Source: Deltaproteobacteria bacterium
GTDB lineage: Bacteria; Desulfobacterota; Syntrophia; Syntrophales; Smithellaceae
Direction: 5' to 3'
Assembly: GCA_022703375.1 (NCBI GenBank)
Contig: JAKLDS010000017.1
Location: forward strand, 1-44,139
DNA: 44,139 bases
The notes under the pieces are model-generated. The model ran no database searches. It saw nothing but the letters and a program-made list of their open reading frames with translations, and was not told the origin of the DNA. The position numbers and the translations under genes were made by a program. Below, in pieces: positions 8,156-34,675 of the stretch (its first letter is position 1; each line of letters begins with the position of its first letter).

Positions 8156-10237
8156 TTATTCTTCTTTGTTCTTTTTGAACTCGGCAATAATTTTTTCCGC
8201 GATATAAGAAGGAACTTCTTCGTAGTGCGACTCAGTGTACGTGAAGTTTCCTCTGCCGCTGGTCATCGAACGTAAATCGGGAGCGTATTTTAAAATTTCC
8301 GCGAGCGGCACCTGCCCCTTGATAATCTGCAGGGAACCGTTGGCGTCCATTCCCATAACACGGCCGCGCCGGCTGTTTAAATCGCCGATAACGTCGCCCA
8401 TATATTCTTCGGGAATTTCAATGCTGATATTGACAATCGGTTCCAGAAGAATCGGCTGGCAATCCATAACGCCTTTTTGAAAAGCCATGGAGCCCGCAAT
8501 TTTAAAGGCCATTTCCGAAGAATCCACCGTATGATAAGAACCATCCGTCAGGGATATTTTGAAATCAACCACAGGATAACCGGCCAGCACTCCTTTTGCC
8601 GCTGCTTCCACTATGCCCTTTTCCACAGCCGGACGGTATTGGCCGGGGATTACGCCGCCGACGATTTTATCTTCGAATTTGAACCCGGAGCCGCGGGGCA
8701 ACGGTTCAATATCAATCCAGCAATCGCCGAACTGGCCGCGTCCGCCGGATTGTTTTTTGTATCTGCCCTGAATGTTTGTCTTACCCTTGATTGTTTCCTT
8801 ATAAGGGATTTTCGGCGTATTGAGATTGACTTCCACGCCGAATTTTCTTTTCATCTTATCAATATTGACTTCAATGTGCACCTGTCCCATGCCGGATAAA
8901 ATCATTTCCTTCGTTTCCACATTACGGGTGAAAACGATTGTCGGATCTTCTTCCGTCAGACGATGAATGGAGGAGGCAATCTTATCTTCGTCGCCGCGGG
9001 TCTTCGGCTCAATGGCAAAGGACATAATCGGCGGGGGCACGGCAACCTTGTCAAAAATAACCGGCGCTTTCTCGAAGCAGAGGGTATCGCCGGTGACGGT
9101 TTCCTTGAGTTTGGCAACGACGCCGATATCTCCGGGAATCAGAATGTCAGTCTGTTTTTGTGTCTTTCCTTCCGGTAAAAATATATGACCGAATTTTTCC
9201 GTTATTTTTTTCGATGCGTTATAGACGTTGGAATCGGCGCTCAGTTTGCCCGAATAGACGCGGAACATGGTAAGCCTGCCCGCGTAGGGATCGGCAATTG
9301 TTTTAAAAACTATGGCGGAGAAAGGCGCATCTTCCAGCGGTTTTCTTTCTTCCGCTTCGCCGGTCTGCGGTTTCTTACCCTGCATTGGTTCGCGGTCGGC
9401 AGGTGAGCGCAGCGAACCGACAATCAAATCCAGCAGGGGGGAAATGCCGATATTTTTTATGGCGGAACCGCACAGGACGGGAACAAGAGCGCCCGCTGCG
9501 ATTCCCTTTTTTAATCCCGTCTTTAATTCTTCCAGCGAAAGCTCGCCGGTTTCCAGGTACTTGTTCATCAGCTCGTCGTCAGCTTCTGCGATGTCCTCAA
9601 CCATCGTTTCACGGCAGCTTTTGACTTCATCCATCAGGGCGGCGGGTATTTCTGTTGTCCTGGCCGGTCCCTTTCCCTCGGAAGCCAGATAGGCCTTCAT
9701 GCCGATTAAATCAACAACGCCGGTAAATTTGTCTTCCGCTCCGATGGGCAGGAAAACGGCGGTTGTTTTTTGCTTGAATTTACTTTTGATGCTGGCCAGG
9801 GCAGTCTGAAAATTAGCCCGTTCCCGATCCATTCTGTTGACAAAGATGATACGGGGCAGGTTGTATTCGTCGGCGATTTCCCATACTTTCTGTGTTTGAA
9901 ATTCCACGCCGCCCACCGCGTCAACAACAATTAAAGTATTATCCACAACACTCATGGAACATTTGATATCAAAGGCGAAATTGGAGTCGCCCGGTGTGTC
10001 AATAATAGTAATCTTATTTTTATCCCATTCGGTAAAGGTTGCCGCCGAAGTGATGGAGATGCGCCGTTTTTGCTCTTCCGGCTCAAAGTCGAGCGATGAT
10101 GATCCGTCGTCAACCTTGCCTAAACGCTCGGTTTTGCCGGAAACAAATAAAAGTGATTCGCAAAGAGAGGTCTTACCGGTTCCGCCATGTCCGACTACTG
10201 CCAGATTTCTCAGAGATTTTGTTTCATACTTTGCCAT
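8156..10237 (-). CDS. fusA: Elongation factor G-like GTPase (FusA2-type paralogue)
   Basis: A 693-residue translational GTPase with the full EF-G domain set: G domain, domain II, and domains III-V with the GRGQFGD-like segment in domain IV. G1 is GHGGTGKT (residues 16-23), G2 falls in RRISITS (58-64), and G4 is NRMD (134-137). G3 is DTPGD (80-84) rather than the usual DTPGH, so the histidine that activates GTP hydrolysis in classical EF-G is an aspartate here. Together with the non-standard G1 this marks an EF-G-like paralogue, probably not the main translocase, though no second copy is in the window. The start is the ATG at 10237, with AAAGGAG six bases upstream; the frame also allows 10252. 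Followed closely by mog, glyQ and glyS. Confidence 0.88.
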   Translation of the reverse strand: MAKYETKSLRNLAVVGHGGTGKTSLCESLLFVSGKTERLGKVDDGSSSLDFEPEEQKRRISITSAATFTEWDKNKITIIDTPGDSNFAFDIKCSMSVVDNTLIVVDAVGGVEFQTQKVWEIADEYNLPRIIFVNRMDRERANFQTALASIKSKFKQKTTAVFLPIGAEDKFTGVVDLIGMKAYLASEGKGPARTTEIPAALMDEVKSCRETMVEDIAEADDELMNKYLETGELSLEELKTGLKKGIAAGALVPVLCGSAIKNIGISPLLDLIVGSLRSPADREPMQGKKPQTGEAEERKPLEDAPFSAIVFKTIADPYAGRLTMFRVYSGKLSADSNVYNASKKITEKFGHIFLPEGKTQKQTDILIPGDIGVVAKLKETVTGDTLCFEKAPVIFDKVAVPPPIMSFAIEPKTRGDEDKIASSIHRLTEEDPTIVFTRNVETKEMILSGMGQVHIEVNIDKMKRKFGVEVNLNTPKIPYKETIKGKTNIQGRYKKQSGGRGQFGDCWIDIEPLPRGSGFKFEDKIVGGVIPGQYRPAVEKGIVEAAAKGVLAGYPVVDFKISLTDGSYHTVDSSEMAFKIAGSMAFQKGVMDCQPILLEPIVNISIEIPEEYMGDVIGDLNSRRGRVMGMDANGSLQIIKGQVPLAEILKYAPDLRSMTSGRGNFTYTESHYEEVPSYIAEKIIAEFKKNKEE

Positions 10238-10361
10238 GAAAGCTCCTTTCAATATCTCAGTAATATCGCAATACAGCCGTATGTTCGAAGCGCGTTTTTA
10301 ACTTATCATGAAGGTAAAATCAAGACAATTTTCTGCGGCGGCTGACGACAGATTGTTCAAT

Positions 10362-12056
10362 TTATTCGATGGACAGTCTGCGTTCACCGATAATCATCGG
10401 ATACAAGGTGGCCGCAAGGCAAAGTAAAAAAGCGAGAGTAAAAGAAATGACGAGCCAGGCCATCTGCCAGAGAGTCAAAGTTCTACCCCGGATGTCGGAC
10501 ATAAATACATAATAGACAGGACCTGCTTCCAGAATGATAACCGCAGCTATCAGGCCGAAACAGAAAAGCATGAAAAGCAGACCGCCGAAGCTGGTGACGG
10601 CCTGCGCCGGATTTTCCGACTGGAAATTCGGATAGGATGCGCCCAGGCCGATGGCCAGGGCAACAACGGGCGGAACAAGACAAAACATCGTGACTGCCGA
10701 CAGGACCATTATGAAAGGTGTAACCGACAAGAGCAGGTTGGAGGCTATGATGAGAATTTCCGCCAGAATAGTGAGAGGCAGGCAATAAAGAAAAAACTTT
10801 ATCCAGAGAAATGTTCTCAATGACACCGGAGCCGCCTGAACAATCCAGAAAGCCCGCCCTTCCATGCTCACTGCCGGAAAGACAAAACGGGCGGCCAGCG
10901 CCGCCAGCACAAAAGCGGCCAAACCCATATTCAGAAAGGAAAATAAATTCTGCAGATAAACTGTCCTGATGGGCGATTTGTCCAGCGGCAGAACGGAGAA
11001 ATTGTAAAGATAAATGGCAATCAAAGCGGCCATCAAAAAAAGCTGCGGCCATTGCGTGGAATCACGGAAAAAAGTCCTTACTTCCTTGACGGCGAAAGCC
11101 CTGGCTGCGCGGGGGAGCAAATTGAATAAACTTTCCCAGCTGAAACCTTTGTAAGAAAAAGGCTTGAAAAGGCGCTGCGGTGTCGTCTGCGCCCGGGAAA
11201 AACCCTGAAAATAGGAAACCCGGGCGATAATATCATTGATGAAAATCATCGTAAAAGCAAAGCTGCCGGCGAGCGCAATATGGAAAAGGGAATTTTTTAT
11301 TTCGCCTTGCAGCGCCGTCCGGAGCGCATCGGTAATCCACGTGGTGGGTAAAAAGGCGAAATCGGCAGTCTGCATGGAGTTCAGATAGAGGACAACGGTG
11401 GCGAAGCTGTCGGGATTGACCAGCTGTTCGGGTCTGATCAAACGCAGCGCCAGGACAAGCAGCAGAACCAGAAAAAATCCCAGCATGACAAGAATGGTCC
11501 GGATTCTGCCGGCGGGCAGTATGGCGGCGCCCAGCAAAACGACCGCACTGCTGAGCGCTGCGGCGATCACGCACAGGAAAGCAATGGCCAGAAGAACCAC
11601 TGCATAATATAGAGGCCCGGCATGATAAATCAGGCCGTAGGACAGGAATGCGGGCAGACTGAAGGCCACAACCATCCAGGAGCTGTCGAAGGTGCTGATG
11701 AGCCAGCGGGAGAAAAAAACAGTGGCGGCGTCAACAGGCAGTGAATGAATGAACGGCAGATCCTGACTCAAATAAAGATGGGAAAGGCAATTAATAATGT
11801 TGCTGAAAATCAGCAAAGCAAAGAAAGTCATTACCACCATGGCCAAAAGCTTCATGGCCAGAATATCGCCGAATTCCTGTACGCTCTGGAAATAGGATAA
11901 AACACGGTAAAAAACAACGAAGATGCCTATCCAGAAAACAATTCCCAGAACAGCGAACATCAGAACGCGAATCCAGCTGTTTTTTTTATTGTCCGGTCTC
12001 AGGCTGTTGATTGCGGAAAGCAGCCGCGGCCGGATGAGCGAAAAAGCATCCATCAT
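10362..12056 (-). CDS. ABC transporter permease, large multi-span type
   Basis: A 564-residue integral membrane protein with about twelve hydrophobic segments and a cytoplasmic middle stretch (about residues 285-330) containing PQRLFKPFSYKGFSW. The size and the split into two hydrophobic halves resemble the putative ABC permeases of the ABC_tran_2 kind that pair with a single ATPase and act as exporters. It overlaps the upstream ATPase gene by 4 bases (ATGA), so the two almost certainly form one transporter. The substrate is unknown. It is the last gene of the five-gene operon starting at 16702. No clear terminator is visible in 10253-10361. Confidence 0.8.
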   Translation of the reverse strand: MMDAFSLIRPRLLSAINSLRPDNKKNSWIRVLMFAVLGIVFWIGIFVVFYRVLSYFQSVQEFGDILAMKLLAMVVMTFFALLIFSNIINCLSHLYLSQDLPFIHSLPVDAATVFFSRWLISTFDSSWMVVAFSLPAFLSYGLIYHAGPLYYAVVLLAIAFLCVIAAALSSAVVLLGAAILPAGRIRTILVMLGFFLVLLLVLALRLIRPEQLVNPDSFATVVLYLNSMQTADFAFLPTTWITDALRTALQGEIKNSLFHIALAGSFAFTMIFINDIIARVSYFQGFSRAQTTPQRLFKPFSYKGFSWESLFNLLPRAARAFAVKEVRTFFRDSTQWPQLFLMAALIAIYLYNFSVLPLDKSPIRTVYLQNLFSFLNMGLAAFVLAALAARFVFPAVSMEGRAFWIVQAAPVSLRTFLWIKFFLYCLPLTILAEILIIASNLLLSVTPFIMVLSAVTMFCLVPPVVALAIGLGASYPNFQSENPAQAVTSFGGLLFMLFCFGLIAAVIILEAGPVYYVFMSDIRGRTLTLWQMAWLVISFTLAFLLCLAATLYPMIIGERRLSIE

Positions 12057-12787
12057 AAGAAAGTGTCTTCCTTTGTTATGGTTAAGAAGACCTCTTCCAG
12101 CCTTGCTTCCCCGAGGTTCGCTACATGTTTTAATTCCTGCACGGTACCCTCCGCGAGAAGGGATCCTTTATGAATAACTCCGATGCGATGACACAAATCT
12201 TCCGCGATGCTCAGGGTATGGGTAGAAACAAATACGGTGGTGTTTTTTGCCGCCAGCTCCTGCAAAATATCCTTGACCATCCTTACGGCAGCCGGATCCA
12301 GTCCGACCATCGGCTCATCAATAATCAATATCTGCGGTTCATGTAAAAGCGCGCAGGCGATAATCAGGCGTTGCTTCATGCCGTGGGAATAGGCCTCGAT
12401 AATTTCTCCGGACCAATCCCAGAGGGCGAACTGCCGCAGCAACCTTTCCGCCTTTTCGAAAAAAGAATCGGGCTGAACATTGTATAAATCAGCGGAGAAA
12501 CGGAGAAACTCCATGCCGGTAAGTTTTTCGTAGAGAAACGGGCGGTCGGGGACAAATCCTATTTTCATTTTGGCTGCCGCCGGATCTTTGGCCATATCCA
12601 CCGATCCGATTAAGACGCTGCCCGCGGTAGGAGCGAGAATGCCGCCCATCATGCGAATTGTGGTAGTCTTGCCGGCGCCGTTGGGGCCGATAAATCCGTA
12701 AATTTCCCCGGCCCGGACATGCAGATTGAGCCGGTTTACCGCGATCGTCGTTCCATAGTCCTTGGTCAGCCCCTTGAGTTCAATCAT
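12053..12787 (-). CDS. ABC transporter ATP-binding protein
   Basis: A 244-residue nucleotide-binding subunit with Walker A GPNGAGKTT (about 35-43), a signature YSHGMKQRL in place of the textbook LSGGQ, and Walker B ILIIDEPMVGLDP followed by the switch His in FVSTHTLS. The degenerate signature is common among export-type (CcmA/NatA-like) ATPases. It overlaps its permease (12053-12056) and the transglutaminase-like gene (12784-12787) by 4 bases each, so expression of all three is coupled. Confidence 0.93.
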   Translation of the reverse strand: MIELKGLTKDYGTTIAVNRLNLHVRAGEIYGFIGPNGAGKTTTIRMMGGILAPTAGSVLIGSVDMAKDPAAAKMKIGFVPDRPFLYEKLTGMEFLRFSADLYNVQPDSFFEKAERLLRQFALWDWSGEIIEAYSHGMKQRLIIACALLHEPQILIIDEPMVGLDPAAVRMVKDILQELAAKNTTVFVSTHTLSIAEDLCHRIGVIHKGSLLAEGTVQELKHVANLGEARLEEVFLTITKEDTFL

Positions 12788-14250
12788 TTTACCTGCTCCA
12801 GTATCTCGATGTTTAATTTACCAATCACTCCCAGCAAATCCAGTTGTTCGGCGCCGTCTCCGCGCACCATCCGGATATGGGTGACATCGGCGGGCAACTG
12901 ATTAAAAACCGTATCGGCGGTAACCCAGCCGTCCAGATAAGCGATATTCCAGGCATGATAATAGAATTTTCCCCGCAAATAAACAACGCCTGTTTCAATC
13001 TGTGCCGGAATGCCTGCGGCGCGCAGGAGCGCAGCCGTTAGAACGGCGTGTTCATTGCAATCACCGGCTTTGTTTTTCAGGGTTTCCAGAGCGCTGGGAA
13101 CGGACAGGACTGGTTTTTTCTCAATGTTACGAAAAACCCACTCGATAATTCTGACAGCTTTTTGCTTCGGTGTATCGGTGGATTGAACAATCTTTCGCAG
13201 TTGTGCCGTTATCTCCGGATGGCTGGATTGAATAAGCCCGGTCGGTTTCAGAAAAGCGGCGAAGTTTTCCGGTAAATTGCCGGTTCCGGCCGACTGCGTG
13301 TCGAAAGATTCTCTGGTAATGGTCAGGATATCCTTCTGGCGGCTCTGTCTGCCGCCGTGCAGAAAAAGCGGTTGTCGGTCAATGCCGCTGATTTTCACCC
13401 GGAGGGCTTTAAGCTGCGCCGGTTCCGCTATCTTAGCGGCGACGGAAATGGCGGCGATTTCCGTGAAATCAATAGCCCCCTCTCTCATTATTCCTGCCCG
13501 GGCTTTTTCCGGGCTTGACTTTTCCAGAGACAGACCGATGATTCCTTTTTCCTTCAGGACATCTCCTTCTTTATTCAGCCAGGCGCAATTTTCGGCGCCC
13601 ATGAAATCGGCGCAGTATTTCTGCGTCATTACGCGTTTTCCCATTATCGGGATGATTTCATCAGCTTTTCTGGCAACCCTGACGGATCGCATTCCCAGAG
13701 TCGAGGGATCGAAAATATTAAAGAGGCGGACTTCGTCAACAGACATTTTACCGGAGAAGGCAGCATCGTAAATTCCTCCGCTCAGATGGGGAATTTCTTT
13801 AAGCGGAATTTCGTTTTTCTGCAGGGAGCCTTGCTTTCCTGTATAAAGCACCAGTTTATTTTTGGCGACAATACCGCGAACATTAAAACGAAAAAGACTG
13901 GATTGCAGTTCAAAGTTAAAGGAAGATATGGTCATGTCCGGATTGAGATCTCCCTCTGTCGTCAGGGAAAGAGCCTGCGTTACGCCCATTGTGTTAATCT
14001 GCAGCACGGCTTGTTCTTGGAAATGGAAACCCCCGGCGCGCTCGGTAAAAGTCCTGTGCACATAACCTATCTTGTTTGTTTTCTGGTAGATGCTCATCCA
14101 GGTGTCCTGAGGCATTTTGGTGCCCGTTGCCGTAACGGCCGCTGTTGGTTCCGGCCGTTTTTCAAAAAATTCCAGGCGGATCAGCAGCAGGACAATAAAG
14201 GTAACCGAGATAAAGATGCCCCAGACAATGCGTCCTTTATTCTTGATCAT
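12784..14250 (-). CDS. Membrane-anchored transglutaminase-like protein
   Basis: A 488-residue protein with one N-terminal membrane segment (about residues 8-27) and an extracytoplasmic body. The C-terminal third is a transglutaminase/protease-like core with the full triad: Cys in AGDCNEHA (about 397), His in YYHAWN (about 431) and Asp in VTADTVFNQ (about 446). The region 30-340 has no domain I can name. It contains beta-rich stretches reminiscent of domains found ahead of bacterial transglutaminases. Such proteins may crosslink, cleave or process peptides in the periplasm; which one is not readable here. Both ends overlap neighbours by 4 bases, tying it to the ABC exporter downstream and the adenylate cyclase upstream. 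Confidence 0.8.
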   Translation of the reverse strand: MIKNKGRIVWGIFISVTFIVLLLIRLEFFEKRPEPTAAVTATGTKMPQDTWMSIYQKTNKIGYVHRTFTERAGGFHFQEQAVLQINTMGVTQALSLTTEGDLNPDMTISSFNFELQSSLFRFNVRGIVAKNKLVLYTGKQGSLQKNEIPLKEIPHLSGGIYDAAFSGKMSVDEVRLFNIFDPSTLGMRSVRVARKADEIIPIMGKRVMTQKYCADFMGAENCAWLNKEGDVLKEKGIIGLSLEKSSPEKARAGIMREGAIDFTEIAAISVAAKIAEPAQLKALRVKISGIDRQPLFLHGGRQSRQKDILTITRESFDTQSAGTGNLPENFAAFLKPTGLIQSSHPEITAQLRKIVQSTDTPKQKAVRIIEWVFRNIEKKPVLSVPSALETLKNKAGDCNEHAVLTAALLRAAGIPAQIETGVVYLRGKFYYHAWNIAYLDGWVTADTVFNQLPADVTHIRMVRGDGAEQLDLLGVIGKLNIEILEQVK

Positions 14251-15527
14251 AAATTATCATCCTTGTCTGCGGCTACACCAAAGACCCGGACACGTCCCGT
14301 TCGTCCCTTGATCTGATGTTCTCCCAGATTCCGCAGCTGATAGATGTGCTGCACCTGCCGGGCCAGGTCTTCGGAAATAAGCAGTGTCTCTCCCAGAGGA
14401 ACGCAGAGGCTCTGGATTCGCGAGGCCAGGTTGACGGTGTCGCCGATGACGGTATAATCCTTGCGCAGGGTGGATCCGATGTTGCCCAGCACCACATCTC
14501 CCGTGTGGAGGCTTACGCCGATTTGCGTTGACTGACCGTCGGGCCTCGGAATCAGGCATGCGGCTTCCAGCATGTTGCGGGCGGCCAGCATGGCGTTGAC
14601 GGTATGATAGGGATCATTCTGGGGAGCGCCGAACACGGCCAAAAGCCCGTCACCGATGAACTTGTTAACCATGCCGCCGTTGCGGCCGATGACGTCGCAC
14701 ATGCTGCCGAAATAACTGTTCAGGTAAGCGACAATCTGTTCGGGATTCACTTTATAGGAAAGATCGGTAAAGCCGCGAATATCGGCGAAGAGCACCGTCA
14801 CGACGCGGCGTTCCCCCTGCAGGGAAATGCCTTCGCTTAAGACATGCGAGAGGGCTTCCGGGGCTATGTATTCGCCGAAAAGATGGCGAATGCGTTCCTT
14901 TTCAATAACCTGCCTGGCTATTCTGCTGATTGTATAACGGGCTACGTGCGCGACAAGCATGGCGACAAGACCCGCGCACAGGATATAGATGCTGTGATTA
15001 ACGGCGAAAGCAAGGGAAAAGGTCGGTTCATTGACGATATTTTGCGGCAGACCCGGAGAAATTATGAAATACAGGGCCATATATTCGATGGCGCCCAGGC
15101 AACCGGCGCTGACGGCCAGACAGTAGGAAAAGCGCAGACCGGAAGCCATCACGGCAATAAAAGTCAGATAAGGGGGTGTTGAAGTGAGAGCGTAGAAACT
15201 TCCCATAAAGTGGGCGTCAAGTAAAATCACCAGCGTCGGCAGACTAACTTCGATAGTGACGTTGATGATGCGAATGACAATGATATGCCGGCGGAGCTTT
15301 TCCCGCCATCTTAACAGGATAACATGGTAAAGGCCGAAAGCCAGTGAAACTGAAGATATGATCATGCCCAGCGTCGCCTGGAAATTGGCGGTTATTGTCA
15401 GGGAAAGAAGGAAGGAAGCTGCGGCGATGGCGATGGCGATTTTAGAAATTAGATGCTCGCTTTCTGCGGCGAGTGCGCTGAATTCCTGAGAAATCAGGCG
15501 TAAGGGCGAGGGCTCTGCCTGCTTCAA
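14247..15527 (-). CDS. Membrane-bound class III adenylate cyclase
   Basis: A 426-residue protein with about six transmembrane segments in residues 25-200 and a class III cyclase domain from about 225 to 415. The two metal Asp residues lie in LFADIRGFT (about 245-253) and FIGDG (about 287-291). The Lys just before the second (NKFIGDG) and the Asp in VIGDTVNLASR fit ATP as substrate, and the transition-state Asn/Arg pair is in the latter segment. It should be catalytically active. The start is a TTG at 15527, with AGGAGG five bases upstream; it overlaps the diguanylate cyclase stop (TTGA). The membrane part may sense a ligand or redox state, but no named sensor domain is recognised. Confidence 0.9.
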   Translation of the reverse strand: MKQAEPSPLRLISQEFSALAAESEHLISKIAIAIAAASFLLSLTITANFQATLGMIISSVSLAFGLYHVILLRWREKLRRHIIVIRIINVTIEVSLPTLVILLDAHFMGSFYALTSTPPYLTFIAVMASGLRFSYCLAVSAGCLGAIEYMALYFIISPGLPQNIVNEPTFSLAFAVNHSIYILCAGLVAMLVAHVARYTISRIARQVIEKERIRHLFGEYIAPEALSHVLSEGISLQGERRVVTVLFADIRGFTDLSYKVNPEQIVAYLNSYFGSMCDVIGRNGGMVNKFIGDGLLAVFGAPQNDPYHTVNAMLAARNMLEAACLIPRPDGQSTQIGVSLHTGDVVLGNIGSTLRKDYTVIGDTVNLASRIQSLCVPLGETLLISEDLARQVQHIYQLRNLGEHQIKGRTGRVRVFGVAADKDDNL

Positions 15528-16702
15528 GAAGGCCTCCTGTTCCGGTCATGATAATAAACACATTTATTCTTGCCTGTTTTTTTAGCAAGGTAAAGAGCCT
15601 TGTCGGCTTCCCTGACAACCCTGTCTATCAAGACAGCAGCGCCGGAAGGACTGGGGTAGCAGGAGATGCCGATGGATACGGTGATTCTGATTTTTTTTCT
15701 TCTATAAAGGAAAATTGTATTTTCTATCTTTTTTCTGACCTTCTCGGACGCCATTACGGCTCCCGCGGCATCGGTTTCAAACATGGCCACAATAAATTCC
15801 TCGCCGCCGTAACTGGCCAGCAAATCGGAAACGCGCAGAGTTTTGCGCAGGATCCGCGCTAATTTTACCAGAACATAGTCGCCGCAGTCGTGGCCATAGG
15901 TGTCATTGATGAATTTAAAATCATCAATATCTATCATCATGACAAAAACACGTTTGTCGTATCTTTTGCATTTTTCCACTTCGAGGACGATATGTTCATC
16001 AAAATATCTTCTGTTTCTGATGCCGGTCAGGCTGTCGGTAATGCTCAGTTCTTCCAGTCTCTGTTTTTGTTTTTCCAGTTTCCGGTTGGCTTTTTCCAGT
16101 TCCCGCAGGGCAATCTGCAAGTCACGGTGCAGAAAGCTGTTTTTAATCGCACCGGATATATGTTCGACGAAAAGACGGATTGTTGCAATATCACCGGCGG
16201 AGAAATTGAGATTTCTCCGATAGGCCGACATAATCATTACACCGACCACTTCCTTATCAATGGCCAGGGGCATGACCAATGCGCTTTTAATTCCCCCGGT
16301 TTTGATAACGGCTTCCCGGTTGACCCGGCTGGCTATTTTTTCGGGATCAACATTCTCAAAGTACATGTCTTTATTTTGCAGGAAGGCCGAGGCGACGCGC
16401 CCGCCTTCCTCAATGTTCAGGGGTATTTTCCGGGTGGCCATTTTTTTGATTTCTTCTTCGGAAAAATTGGGGATGACCAGTTTCAGTGTCAGGAGAAACT
16501 CCTTTTTTTCATCCGCCAGCAGGATGGCAAATCCTTCAAAATAAAATATTTTTTTCAGTTCATTGATTGTAACATCGAGAACTTCATCCAGGTCCAGTGA
16601 AGAGCTGATTTTTCTGGTGACGACATCAAGCCTTTCCAGAATTTCTCTGCGCTTGCTGGTTTTGTTTTTCCGGTTTGCCGCAGCGGGGTATTTTTTCATC
16701 AT
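15524..16702 (-). CDS. GAF-GGDEF diguanylate cyclase
   Basis: A 392-residue cytoplasmic protein: a GAF domain at about 25-190, a short coiled coil (about 195-225), and a GGDEF domain (about 226-385) that makes c-di-GMP from two GTP. The active-site loop is GGEEF (about 298-303), a fully active variant, and the metal site is in MIDIDDFKFINDTYGH. An RxxD product-inhibition site (RVSD) lies exactly five residues upstream, so feedback by c-di-GMP is expected. The residue just before YGGEEF is Ser instead of the more usual Arg. It is the first gene of a five-gene overlapping operon. Two ATGs stand in tandem at 16702 and 16699, with no Shine-Dalgarno upstream, and the predicted transcription start falls on the first. 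Confidence 0.93.
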   Translation of the reverse strand: MMKKYPAAANRKNKTSKRREILERLDVVTRKISSSLDLDEVLDVTINELKKIFYFEGFAILLADEKKEFLLTLKLVIPNFSEEEIKKMATRKIPLNIEEGGRVASAFLQNKDMYFENVDPEKIASRVNREAVIKTGGIKSALVMPLAIDKEVVGVMIMSAYRRNLNFSAGDIATIRLFVEHISGAIKNSFLHRDLQIALRELEKANRKLEKQKQRLEELSITDSLTGIRNRRYFDEHIVLEVEKCKRYDKRVFVMMIDIDDFKFINDTYGHDCGDYVLVKLARILRKTLRVSDLLASYGGEEFIVAMFETDAAGAVMASEKVRKKIENTIFLYRRKKIRITVSIGISCYPSPSGAAVLIDRVVREADKALYLAKKTGKNKCVYYHDRNRRPS

Positions 16703-16708
16703 TTGTGA

Positions 16709-16737
16709 AATATAGGAAAGTTGCGTTTTTATGTCAA
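16709..16737 (-). promoter_or_regulatory. Promoter of the cyclase/transglutaminase/ABC operon, probably giving a leaderless mRNA
   Basis: Minus strand TTGACA (16732-16737), a 17-base spacer and TATATT (16709-16714). The standard -7 distance puts +1 at 16702, the A of the first ATG. No ribosome-binding sequence fits between. An imperfect inverted repeat TCAAT-GATA-ATTGA (16734-16747) overlaps the -35 box and could be an operator. Confidence 0.7.
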
Positions 16738-16780
16738 TGATAATTGATGTCCCCGGATAAACCGGCTAGCACCGGATTTT

Positions 16781-16983
16781 GGACTGCTTCGTAAAAAGTT
16801 CCGCAGATAAGGAGCGCATGGTTCGCAGTTCGACAAGCTCACTGTGACATGGCTCACCATGACAAGTAATTAGCATCCCAGCTTGTCCTGAGCCCGCCAA
16901 AGGGCCGCAATAAGCCTGCCCCGGCGCAGACCGGGGAAGGGCGCGGCGCAACACAGTATCCGGAAACTTTACGAGGTCGTCAT
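16781..16983. repeat. Short interspersed element with imperfect terminal inverted repeats
   Basis: The 23 bases at 16781-16803 and the 23 at 16961-16983 form an imperfect inverted pair sharing the core TCGTAAA...GTTCCG / CGGAAAC...TTTACGA. Inside are a TTCGACAAGCTCAC-type segment (16829-16842) and an inverted cousin around 16881-16893 (GCTTGTCCTGAGC). Such motifs are typical of dispersed non-coding repeats in many environmental bacterial genomes. It fills the space between the two divergent promoters and codes for nothing credible; a 62-codon frame through it is chance. It explains most of the 347-base gap between genes. Confidence 0.6.
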
Positions 16984-16993
16984 AATTATAAAA

Positions 16994-17022
16994 TTGACAG
17001 TTATGGTTATTTTTCCTATATA
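16994..17022 (+). promoter_or_regulatory. Promoter of the ABC-F to rel gene run
   Basis: TTGACA (16994-16999), a 17-base spacer and TATATA (17017-17022). The predicted start is near 17029, leaving a 21-base leader with AGGGGG before the TTG start at 17050. This is one of the strongest-looking promoters in the window. Confidence 0.75.
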
Positions 17023-17049: not shown

Positions 17050-18999
17050 TTGATTTACTTAAGAAATGTCAGCTTGTCTTTTCTGGATAAAAAGCTGTTT
17101 GAAAATATTAACTGGACAATTCATCCGAAAAGCCGCATCGGCCTCATCGGCGACAACGGAACCGGCAAGACAACGCTGTTGCGGGCTATTCTGGATCAGG
17201 TGCATTTGGATACAGGCATCATTGATATTCCCAACAGAAAAAATAAAACCATCGGCTATCTTCCGCAGGATTTAGTGGAACTGGAAGCCGTTAACCTGAT
17301 TGATTATTTAAAGAATAAAAGCGGCATGGCCGAGTTGGAAAAATCAATCAGGGATTTGGAGGGACAGATATCGGAGACCAGGCCGCCGTCAGTGGAATAC
17401 AACCGCCTGGCCAGAGCGTATGCCGATGCCACGGCGAATTTCAGTGCGCGGGACGGCTATGCTTTTGAAGCTAATGCCAAACAGGTGCTCAAGGGATTCG
17501 GTTTTAAGGAAGAGGATTTCACGAAGAACTGTGCCTTGTTTTCCGGCGGCTGGAAAATGCGGATATTGCTGGCTTCAATACTGCTCGCCCGGCCGGAAAT
17601 CATGCTGCTGGATGAACCGACCAACCATCTGGACACGGAAAGCATGGAATGGCTGGAGAGTTACCTGAAAGATTATTCCGGAACAATCATTGTCATTTCG
17701 CACGACCGTTTCTTTCTGGATAAGATTGTTTCCCAGACAGCCGAGCTGGCCTTCTGTAAAATCAATATTTTCAAGGGGAATTATTCGTTCTATTTAAAAC
17801 AGAAAGAAAAACGTCTCGCCGCATTAAAGAAGGAACAGGAACTGCAGAAAGCGCAGATAAAAAAAATCGAGACTTTTATCGAGCGCTTTCGCTACAAAGC
17901 CACGAAAGCAAGCCAGGTGCAAAGTCGTGTTAAGCTGCTGGAAAAATTTGCGGCCGTCCGGGTTGATGCAGGAAGTAAAAGTGTGGCCATGACATTTCCG
18001 GAAGGAAAGAAAAGCGTGCGGGAAGTTGTTAAAGTAGCCGGGCTTTCCCATAATTATGGCAGCAATCAGGTATTCAGCGACGTCAACTTTACGCTTTTTC
18101 GCGGCGATAAAGTTGCTTTTGTCGGTCTCAACGGTTCCGGAAAATCCACCTTATCGAGACTGCTTTCCCGGACGGAAGAGCCCGCTGACGGTTTTGTTCA
18201 TTATGGCGACAATGTGAATATGGCATTTTTTTCTCAGGAAAGCTCGCAGAATTTAAATTACGACAGGACTATCTGGGAAGAAGTAAGCCTGGTTCCTTCC
18301 TCAGCCGACGATCAGCAAAGGCGCAATCTGCTGGGATCTTTTCTTTTTTCCGGGGATGATATCTACAAGACGGTATCCGTTCTTTCCGGCGGCGAAAAAT
18401 CACGCCTGGCTCTTTTGAAATTAATGCTGCTCGACACTAATTTTCTGATTCTGGATGAACCGACCAATCATCTTGATTTGCGGACGAAAGATATCTTTCA
18501 GGAAGCGCTGATTAATTATTCAGGAACGGTGGCGATTGTTTCTCATGACCGTTATTTTCTGGATTTGCTGGTCAATAAAATTTTTGAGTTGAAAGACGGT
18601 AAAATTCAGGAATACCATGGCAATTACTCCTATTTTATTGAAAAACGCACAGAACTGACGGGAGAACCGACTAAAGCCGGCAAGTCCAATTCTCAGGCGG
18701 GTGAGCGGCCGGGCAAAAGCAAAGAGGCCAAAAGGCTGGCCGCGGAAGAAAGAAACAAACTGGCCAGAATCAGAAATGTCTGCAAAAAAGAACTGGCGTC
18801 TGTCGAAGAAAAAATTGCCGTTCTGGAAAAAGAAAAATCAGCCGGGGAGGCTGCCTTGTGCAATCCGCAAGTCCACAAAGATTCGGCAAAGGTTATTGCC
18901 CTCCACAGAGATTTAAAAAAAATAACGGCGGAACTGGAGCATTCCTACAGCCGCTGGACGGAACTTAGTTTGCAACTAGATGAAATGGCAATGACTTAA
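17050..18999 (+). CDS. ABC-F family ATPase (ribosome-associated, Uup/YheS-like)
   Basis: A 649-residue protein with two ABC domains in one chain and no membrane segment, the ABC-F layout. Walker A motifs are GDNGTGKTT (about 35-43) and GLNGSGKST (about 360-368). Signatures are FSGGWKMRI and LSGGEKSRL, and both Walker B motifs end in DEPTNHLD. The linker between domains is charged and helical, as in factors that reach the ribosomal P site. A Lys/Glu-rich C-terminal coiled coil (about 560-645) resembles Uup or YheS more than EttA. Start is a TTG at 17050 preceded by AGGGGG. The role is probably rescue of stalled ribosomes; the exact subfamily is uncertain. It heads a ten-gene same-strand run. 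Confidence 0.93.
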   Translation: MIYLRNVSLSFLDKKLFENINWTIHPKSRIGLIGDNGTGKTTLLRAILDQVHLDTGIIDIPNRKNKTIGYLPQDLVELEAVNLIDYLKNKSGMAELEKSIRDLEGQISETRPPSVEYNRLARAYADATANFSARDGYAFEANAKQVLKGFGFKEEDFTKNCALFSGGWKMRILLASILLARPEIMLLDEPTNHLDTESMEWLESYLKDYSGTIIVISHDRFFLDKIVSQTAELAFCKINIFKGNYSFYLKQKEKRLAALKKEQELQKAQIKKIETFIERFRYKATKASQVQSRVKLLEKFAAVRVDAGSKSVAMTFPEGKKSVREVVKVAGLSHNYGSNQVFSDVNFTLFRGDKVAFVGLNGSGKSTLSRLLSRTEEPADGFVHYGDNVNMAFFSQESSQNLNYDRTIWEEVSLVPSSADDQQRRNLLGSFLFSGDDIYKTVSVLSGGEKSRLALLKLMLLDTNFLILDEPTNHLDLRTKDIFQEALINYSGTVAIVSHDRYFLDLLVNKIFELKDGKIQEYHGNYSYFIEKRTELTGEPTKAGKSNSQAGERPGKSKEAKRLAAEERNKLARIRNVCKKELASVEEKIAVLEKEKSAGEAALCNPQVHKDSAKVIALHRDLKKITAELEHSYSRWTELSLQLDEMAMT

Positions 19000-32779: not shown

Positions 32780-34675
32780 TTATTCTTTGAACATCAGCAT
32801 TAAATCGTAAACTCCGCCGTCGCTCTTTTTCTTCATGTCAAACCCGCCCTTTTCAAAAACATGAAGCATGGGTTGATTATCAGACAGGACTTCCGCTGTA
32901 AAGCCCAGCAGACCCTGTCTTCTGGCGAGATAGGTCAGATATTTGAGAAGTTCATAGCCGATGCCCTGGTTTTGCTGATCATCGCGCACGGCGAAAGCCA
33001 CTTCCGCAGTGTGCGTTCTTTCATCAACTCCGTACTGTCCGACTGCGGCAATAAAATTGTTTTCCTGATCTCCTACGACAACGACCAGAACAACTTCCTT
33101 TGTGTAATCAATAACAACAAAATCCTGCAGCCGTTCATGAGGCATGTCCTTGCGGTAGGAAAGAAAACGACGGTGCAGGCTGATATCGGACAACGAATAG
33201 AAAAAATCCTTCAGCAGCGGCTCATCGCTTATTTTTACCGGACGGATAAAAATTGACAACTGTGTTTTGGTTGTCCGGTATGTTTCCAGCTCGACGGGAT
33301 ATTCACCGCGTTTGCCCGGGATAAAGGCCTGATCGCGGAAAATGAGGCCGCGCTTCTTGGCTTCATCAATCAGCCAGGGGCGGAATTTGGGATGGGCAAT
33401 CGAAATCAGTTCCATGGCGCGTTCGCGGATATTTTTTCCATGGAGATACGCAATGCCGTATTCCGTGACTACATAACGCACATCACCGCGGTTTAAAGTT
33501 ACGCCGGCCTGTTCCTTGAGAGCGGGAACGATGCGGGATATTTCGTCGTCATGAGAGGTCGCTTTAACTGCGAGGATAGTTTTACCGTTTTTGGAAAGCA
33601 GTGAACCGCGCATGAAATCCTGATGGCCGCCGATGCCGCTGTAGAAAACTCCGCCGATGGATTCGGAAGTCGCCTGTCCGGTCAAATCAATTTCCAGCGC
33701 GCTGTTAATAGCCACCATGTTGTCAATCTGGGCAATGACCAGAGGATCGTTAGTATAGTCAATAGTCCGAAAAACAACGGAAGGATTATCATGGAGAAAA
33801 TCGTATGTTTTTTTCCGCCCCATGCTGAAGGAGGCTACCGATTTACCACGGTCAATTGTTTTCCGGGAGTTGTCAATTACTCCCGCATTAATCAAATCAA
33901 CAAGCCCGTCGCTTAAAAGCTCCGTATGAACGCCGAGATTCTTTTTGCTGTAGAGATTAGTCATGATAGCATTGGGCAGGCTGCCGTAGCCGACTTGGAT
34001 GGTATCTCCATCCTGGACGAGGCTGGCCACATAATTGCCGATTTTTTGAATATCTTCGCTGATGGGAGCTCCGGCTACTTCCAGCAGCGGCTCGTCATAG
34101 GGTATGATAAAATCAACATCCTTGATATTAAGGAAGCCGTCACCGTGAATACGGGGCATATTGGCGTTGATTTGGGCGATAACAATGTGAGACATTTCCG
34201 TTGCCGCCTTGACGATATCCACGCTGACGCCGAGACTTAGAAAACCATGATCGTCCGGCAGCGAAGTCTGGATAAGTGCGACGTCCAGATGCACAACATC
34301 ACGATAAAGAAGAGAAGGGACATTGGAAAGTGAAATAGGCGTGTAATCGGAGAGACCTTTATTAATGGAATCGCGGGTATTTTCTCCGATGAAAAAGGAA
34401 TTATGGCGAAAATTGGATTTGTATTTGGCATCGGTATAGGGAGAAACGCCCAGCGAATATACATGAATGATTTCCGTGTCAAAAAAAGCTTTGGGATTGG
34501 ATTCGACGTAACGCGTCATCGCCTGAACAAGATACTGCGGCTCCCCGCAACCGGAAGCCACGAATATTTGATTGCCACGGCGGATATGGCTGAATATTTC
34601 ATCTTCGGAAACAAACTTTTCCGGGTACAATTCCCGGAAAGTCTGCATATTACTTTTGTTTTTCTCTGAATACAT
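32780..34675 (-). CDS. Acetyl-CoA hydrolase/CoA-transferase fused to a GNAT acetyltransferase domain
   Basis: A 631-residue two-domain protein. Residues 1 to about 465 match the acetyl-CoA hydrolase/4-hydroxybutyrate CoA-transferase family, with the likely thioester-forming Glu in NSALEIDLTGQ (about 326) and downstream YSGIGGHQDF and VTEYGIAYLHGK. Residues about 472-630 are a GNAT domain, with the acetyl-CoA loop in RDDQQNQGIGYELL. Such a chain could move CoA between acetate and another acid, while the GNAT part acetylates a protein or small molecule; the coupling of the two is inference. Its AAGG ribosome site overlaps the chemoreceptor stop, 8 bases upstream, so it is translationally tied to that gene. 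Confidence 0.88.
   Translation of the reverse strand: MYSEKNKSNMQTFRELYPEKFVSEDEIFSHIRRGNQIFVASGCGEPQYLVQAMTRYVESNPKAFFDTEIIHVYSLGVSPYTDAKYKSNFRHNSFFIGENTRDSINKGLSDYTPISLSNVPSLLYRDVVHLDVALIQTSLPDDHGFLSLGVSVDIVKAATEMSHIVIAQINANMPRIHGDGFLNIKDVDFIIPYDEPLLEVAGAPISEDIQKIGNYVASLVQDGDTIQVGYGSLPNAIMTNLYSKKNLGVHTELLSDGLVDLINAGVIDNSRKTIDRGKSVASFSMGRKKTYDFLHDNPSVVFRTIDYTNDPLVIAQIDNMVAINSALEIDLTGQATSESIGGVFYSGIGGHQDFMRGSLLSKNGKTILAVKATSHDDEISRIVPALKEQAGVTLNRGDVRYVVTEYGIAYLHGKNIRERAMELISIAHPKFRPWLIDEAKKRGLIFRDQAFIPGKRGEYPVELETYRTTKTQLSIFIRPVKISDEPLLKDFFYSLSDISLHRRFLSYRKDMPHERLQDFVVIDYTKEVVLVVVVGDQENNFIAAVGQYGVDERTHTAEVAFAVRDDQQNQGIGYELLKYLTYLARRQGLLGFTAEVLSDNQPMLHVFEKGGFDMKKKSDGGVYDLMLMFKE

Follow-up and report, generated by a model that had tools for sequence, protein, structure and literature searches.

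The window analysed here, the whole 44,139-nucleotide stretch of contig JAKLDS010000017.1 from a Deltaproteobacteria bacterium of the family Smithellaceae, includes a run of five genes on the minus strand (positions 10362-16702), read in the order GAF-GGDEF protein, class III cyclase, transglutaminase-like protein (TG), ABC ATPase and ABC permease (Table 1). ORF coordinates confirm the first-pass annotation in that all five genes point in one direction and each of the four junctions is a stop/start overlap of 4 bases. Its domain assignments agree with Pfam, the 12 spans of the permease being supported by a model of moderate confidence, and the catalytic residues that it had noted for both cyclases and for the Cys-His-Asp triad of TG were found in place by a residue check and in a 46-row TG alignment. 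The G+C content of the locus has no abrupt step.

Table 1. Features of the five-gene locus and its surroundings (positions in the window).
Feature	Position	Strand	Evidence and remarks
GAF-GGDEF diguanylate cyclase (predicted), 392 aa	15524..16702	-	Pfam GGDEF/GAF, motifs intact; lineage-specific, outside the conserved unit
Membrane class III cyclase, 426 aa	14247..15527	-	Pfam Guanylate_cyc, motifs intact; lineage-specific, outside the conserved unit
TG, 488 aa: N-terminal membrane anchor, EipB/DUF3108-like beta-spiral, C-terminal transglutaminase-like domain	12784..14250	-	Pfam, alignment, model
ABC ATPase, conserved trio, 244 aa	12053..12787	-	Pfam ABC_tran, Walker A and signature motifs; trails TG in 69/71 loci
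ABC permease PF16949, conserved trio, 564 aa, ~12 helices	10362..12056	-	Pfam, model
Promoter-like site TTGACA-17-TATATT	16709..16737	-	6 nt before the GGDEF start; consensus match only
Dispersed repeat with imperfect terminal inverted repeats, between the GGDEF and ABC-F genes	16765..16995	.	24 full or partial matches in own genome
ABC-F ATPase, relocated beside psd in this lineage (context)	17050..18999	+	In relatives, at other sites and among other neighbours
EF-G-like GTPase downstream of the permease (context)	8156..10252	-	Likely ATG start near 10237; often trails the trio in the family

The first gene codes for a protein with a GAF and a GGDEF domain (Pfam, 3e-44 for the latter). It has the GGEEF motif (299-303), the guanine-site residues N266 and D275 and the I-site R290-D293; by these intact substrate-site and inhibition-site residues the product is a predicted diguanylate cyclase. 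A hybrid cGAMP-type GGDEF enzyme is argued against by the canonical Asp D275, on the criterion that we take to separate this type. The GAF part matches GAF domains only, with roughly 20-35% identity, and a search of 58 relatives at E 1e-60 gave no orthologue of the whole protein. First-look counts show GGDEF genes to be numerous in these genomes.

The second gene has a TTG start with a good AGGAGG ahead of it and encodes a class III cyclase (Guanylate_cyc, 7e-25) with about six predicted membrane spans. Its residues are those of a class III adenylate cyclase: D249 and D293 are presumably the metal-binding aspartates, K289/T359 the Lys/Thr-type purine pair and N366/R370 the transition-state pair, going by what is generally known of the family. 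The catalytic domain has ordinary relatives, mostly about 27-41% identical. The membrane domain had no match in any other of 155 genomes of the class or in 395 genomes sampled over the phylum, nor in any GTDB contig according to a pattern scan whose reach is close relatives only. Receivers for cAMP may exist in this genome, as eight matches to the cNMP-binding domain were found in it, none of them in TG, the ATPase or the permease. A 924-residue open frame on another contig of the genome (C31, 16326-18692) apparently combines class III cyclase and cNMP-binding domains, and could possibly be a cAMP feedback protein.

Many members of the transglutaminase-like superfamily (PF01841) are proteases or amidases. 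TG belongs to this superfamily by its Transglut_core match (1e-19, 71.2 bits against a cut-off of 23), and its triad C398-H432-D446 is invariant in the alignment. The first-pass annotation had suggested a crosslinking or peptide-processing enzyme; the transglutaminase-like domain with its triad stands, and crosslinking is at most a candidate activity of TG. In the AlphaFold model (pLDDT 88) the membrane anchor is followed by an antiparallel beta-spiral, which Foldseek matched to EipB (6NTR) at about 1e-7 and more weakly to ependymin-like and YmcC-like proteins. Among the 46 TG members, 22 match the DUF6134 model and nine match DUF3108; none matches the Pfam model of the EipB family, DUF1849, at E 1. 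As far as the model goes, the likeness of the N-terminal domain to EipB is therefore one of fold only.

The ATPase (ABC_tran, 7e-28) has Walker A and signature motifs and lies next to a permease that matches ABC_tran_2 (PF16949) at 4e-106, with 356 bits against a cut-off of 25.7, which identifies the two as an ABC transporter of the PF16949 type. About 12 membrane helices are seen in the permease model, whose confidence is moderate (pLDDT 72); its best fold match, over most of the permease length, is the mycobacterial efflux pump 8k1p (8e-4). Family and fold suggest export as the direction of transport. In TG, the ATPase and the permease, Pfam found neither a PilZ nor a cNMP-binding nor any other receiver domain, and the trio has no linked gene for a substrate.

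Of the 34 relatives within the family, 31 have TG; over all 58 relatives the count is 43, and 119 of 395 genomes sampled over the phylum have a TG match. No TG relative was found on plasmids. The ATPase gene comes after TG at each of the 28 fetched loci of the family, and the permease gene is next wherever the contig allows. All 22 loci fetched from outside the family have the TG-ATPase order, 21 of them with the permease as well. We also compared 80 named public loci (Smithellaceae, other Syntrophales, Desulfobacterales and others); where there was room on the contig, 69 of 71 had the ATPase gene after TG and 68 of 71 had the permease gene. An overlap of exactly 4 nt joins the TG and ATPase genes in 33 of 70 relatives and the ATPase and permease genes in 31 of 62. 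Since these overlaps are common in relatives, they are inherited and uninformative about the cyclases.

Co-occurrence of the five genes in related genomes, set beforehand as the test of a five-gene system, was not observed. Neither cyclase lies beside the trio at any of the 28 family loci or the 22 more distant ones. Of the 70 named loci that have room upstream, one (L178) has a GGDEF domain next door to the trio. That domain closes an unrelated hybrid kinase of 1283 aa, so that this locus is not a second case. The transglutaminase-ABC pair, which the first-pass annotation had proposed to compare with and without cyclases, is kept without them across the family, the order and the sampled phylum. 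By this distribution, TG-ATPase-permease is an old unit conserved across Smithellaceae, Syntrophales and the sampled relatives in the phylum, and the cyclase pair is a later addition in one lineage. Of the single system proposed for the five genes, the three-gene unit holds and the cyclases are not part of it.

In most fetched family members psd-pss is divergent from TG-ATPase-permease, and EF-G and mog frequently lie downstream of the trio. Both ancestral halves are intact in the genome studied here but are split by the cyclase pair, the dispersed repeat and the ABC-F gene; only in this genome does the cyclase pair lie between TG and psd. The genus is represented by this single MAG, a draft in 120 contigs, and the insertion is known from one genome. 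The repeat has inverted arms at 16782-16795 and 16968-16981 and is possibly a small mobile element. The ABC-F gene has a single strong match per genome in relatives, located elsewhere and with other neighbours, which argues against its having moved in with the cyclases as a block known from relatives. Its position directly before psd is peculiar to this genome; relatives often have it beside a small ferritin/rubrerythrin-like gene. Two other observations concern the neighbourhood. In one genus of the family (L073, L074, L075, L079) an EF-G paralogue, about 35% identical, replaces psd opposite TG, and the usual EF-G is still found after the permease. Within the window, 32780-34675 encodes an acetyl-CoA hydrolase/transferase fused to a GNAT acetyltransferase domain, a ~35% relative of which lies directly before TG at L078 and L139.

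A repeat with this many copies in a draft of this many contigs could have joined unrelated contigs in the assembly. We consider such a chimera most improbable, because the repeat is flanked by both ancestral halves (psd-pss on one side, TG-ATPase-permease-EF-G on the other), a pairing that chance joining would not re-create, and because the gene junctions cyclase/TG and ABC-F/psd are clean and lie away from the repeat.

In most relatives a promoter-like sequence, TTGACT-17-TATAAT, precedes TG by 31-49 nt. A score of 10/12 or more is reached by 17 of 27 upstream regions (1.4 are expected from shuffled sequences), and the same scan gave no clear TG promoter in the other 10. In the genome studied here, the stretch before TG is cyclase coding sequence with a best match of 8/12 within 150 nt, and the nearest upstream candidate on the TG strand is a weak one (9/12 at 14956-14929). 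Judged by these scores, this genome has lost the TG promoter of its relatives. A strong promoter-like match precedes the GGDEF gene, so close to its start that it would give a nearly leaderless message. Its flanks have no visible match to the flanks in relatives, which speaks against its being the former TG promoter retained at its site. Since the TG promoter is lost, the trio is probably read from the GGDEF promoter, co-transcribed with the cyclases and coupled to them in translation via the overlaps. The single transcript assumed by the first-pass annotation is thus favoured by the overlaps, the site before GGDEF and the loss of the TG promoter, and has the standing of a prediction. The trio would then depend on the cyclase transcript, though not necessarily on the cyclase products.

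Taken together, these data probably describe a conserved three-gene envelope module, an ABC exporter with a periplasmic binding and processing protein, that has come to lie behind a lineage-specific cyclase pair and is co-transcribed with it from the GGDEF promoter. Fold and gene order suggest that the ATPase and the permease would form an exporter that extracts an amphiphilic substrate from the inner membrane. TG, held in the membrane by its anchor, could take up the exported substrate on its EipB/LolA-like beta-spiral, and its Cys-His-Asp site could cleave or transfer an amide bond on the substrate or on a partner. In this genome the trio would be made along with the cyclases; an action of c-di-GMP or cAMP on the trio is not needed to explain the arrangement, which can be either a lineage-specific regulatory capture or an accident.

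The accident in its simplest form, in which repeat-linked rearrangement landed the pair before TG, the trio has a promoter of its own inside the cyclase gene and there is no regulatory link, is a possibility that we take seriously but doubt. It fits an arrangement seen in a single lineage, an interval to which the ABC-F gene has relocated and which also contains the dispersed repeat, and the abundance of GGDEF genes in these genomes, but the promoter-like matches before TG do not exceed 8/12 within 150 nt and the nearest candidate farther upstream is only weak. A dedicated five-gene system, with the GAF-GGDEF protein and the membrane cyclase setting local c-di-GMP and cAMP levels that control an enzyme and an exporter of the same transcript, is in our opinion unlikely. 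The four overlaps, the intact catalytic residues, the lost trio promoter with a probable single transcript and the possible cAMP receivers all suit it; against it, the cyclases are absent at every other trio locus examined and the trio proteins have no receiver domain. As the trio works without the pair in relatives, the pair cannot be needed in general. Less likely still is a cassette for maturation and export of a ribosomal peptide, with TG as a leader peptidase similar to lasso-peptide B2 proteins and the ABC genes exporting the product. The catalytic domain of TG does weakly resemble the B2 model NF033537 (1.8e-4), but its 21.8 bits are below the curated cut-off of 33, which led us to reject a lasso-peptide role; the N-terminal anchor also predicts a periplasmic domain, and no gene for a precursor or cyclase partner was seen in the neighbourhoods examined, where short ORFs were not systematically covered.

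The preferred reading, the conserved module behind an added cyclase pair, tells a gene arrangement of a single lineage apart from a three-gene unit worth attention. The fusion of a beta-spiral with a transglutaminase-like domain, nearly always accompanied by an ABC transporter, is a candidate route of envelope transport or processing in syntrophic and sulfate-reducing bacteria, and the loss of the trio promoter behind inserted cyclases offers a natural case of possible regulatory capture. In the searchable open literature, which excludes most subscription papers, we found no description of PF16949 or of a transglutaminase/ABC trio. The farthest-reaching version of this reading, which we think improbable, would make the trio an undescribed, widely conserved envelope export machine, with a membrane-anchored EipB-like carrier fused to a transglutaminase-like enzyme, placed here under a cyclase-led promoter so that export follows c-di-GMP and cAMP.

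Several known systems resemble parts of this locus. In Shewanella putrefaciens, c-di-GMP and cAMP both act on one process, and the cross-talk is reported to run through effector proteins (PMC8938473), whereas here there is only gene adjacency in one genome. The mycobacterial ABC efflux pump (8k1m-8k1p) has the fold closest to that of the permease, with a TM score of about 0.45 and without a significant sequence match. The transglutaminase-like cysteine protease 3isr of Cytophaga shares the catalytic domain and the Cys-His-Asp triad with TG; the membrane anchor, the beta-spiral and the ABC partner are features of TG, none of them known for 3isr within the present analysis. EipB (DUF1849) of Brucella has neither a transglutaminase-like domain nor a linked ABC transporter and is only about 11% identical, but its periplasmic beta-spiral (6NTR) matches TG residues about 49-245 with a TM score of about 0.6 on the target. 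It is a periplasmic envelope-integrity protein whose architecture has been compared with that of LolA and LolB (PMC10787603).
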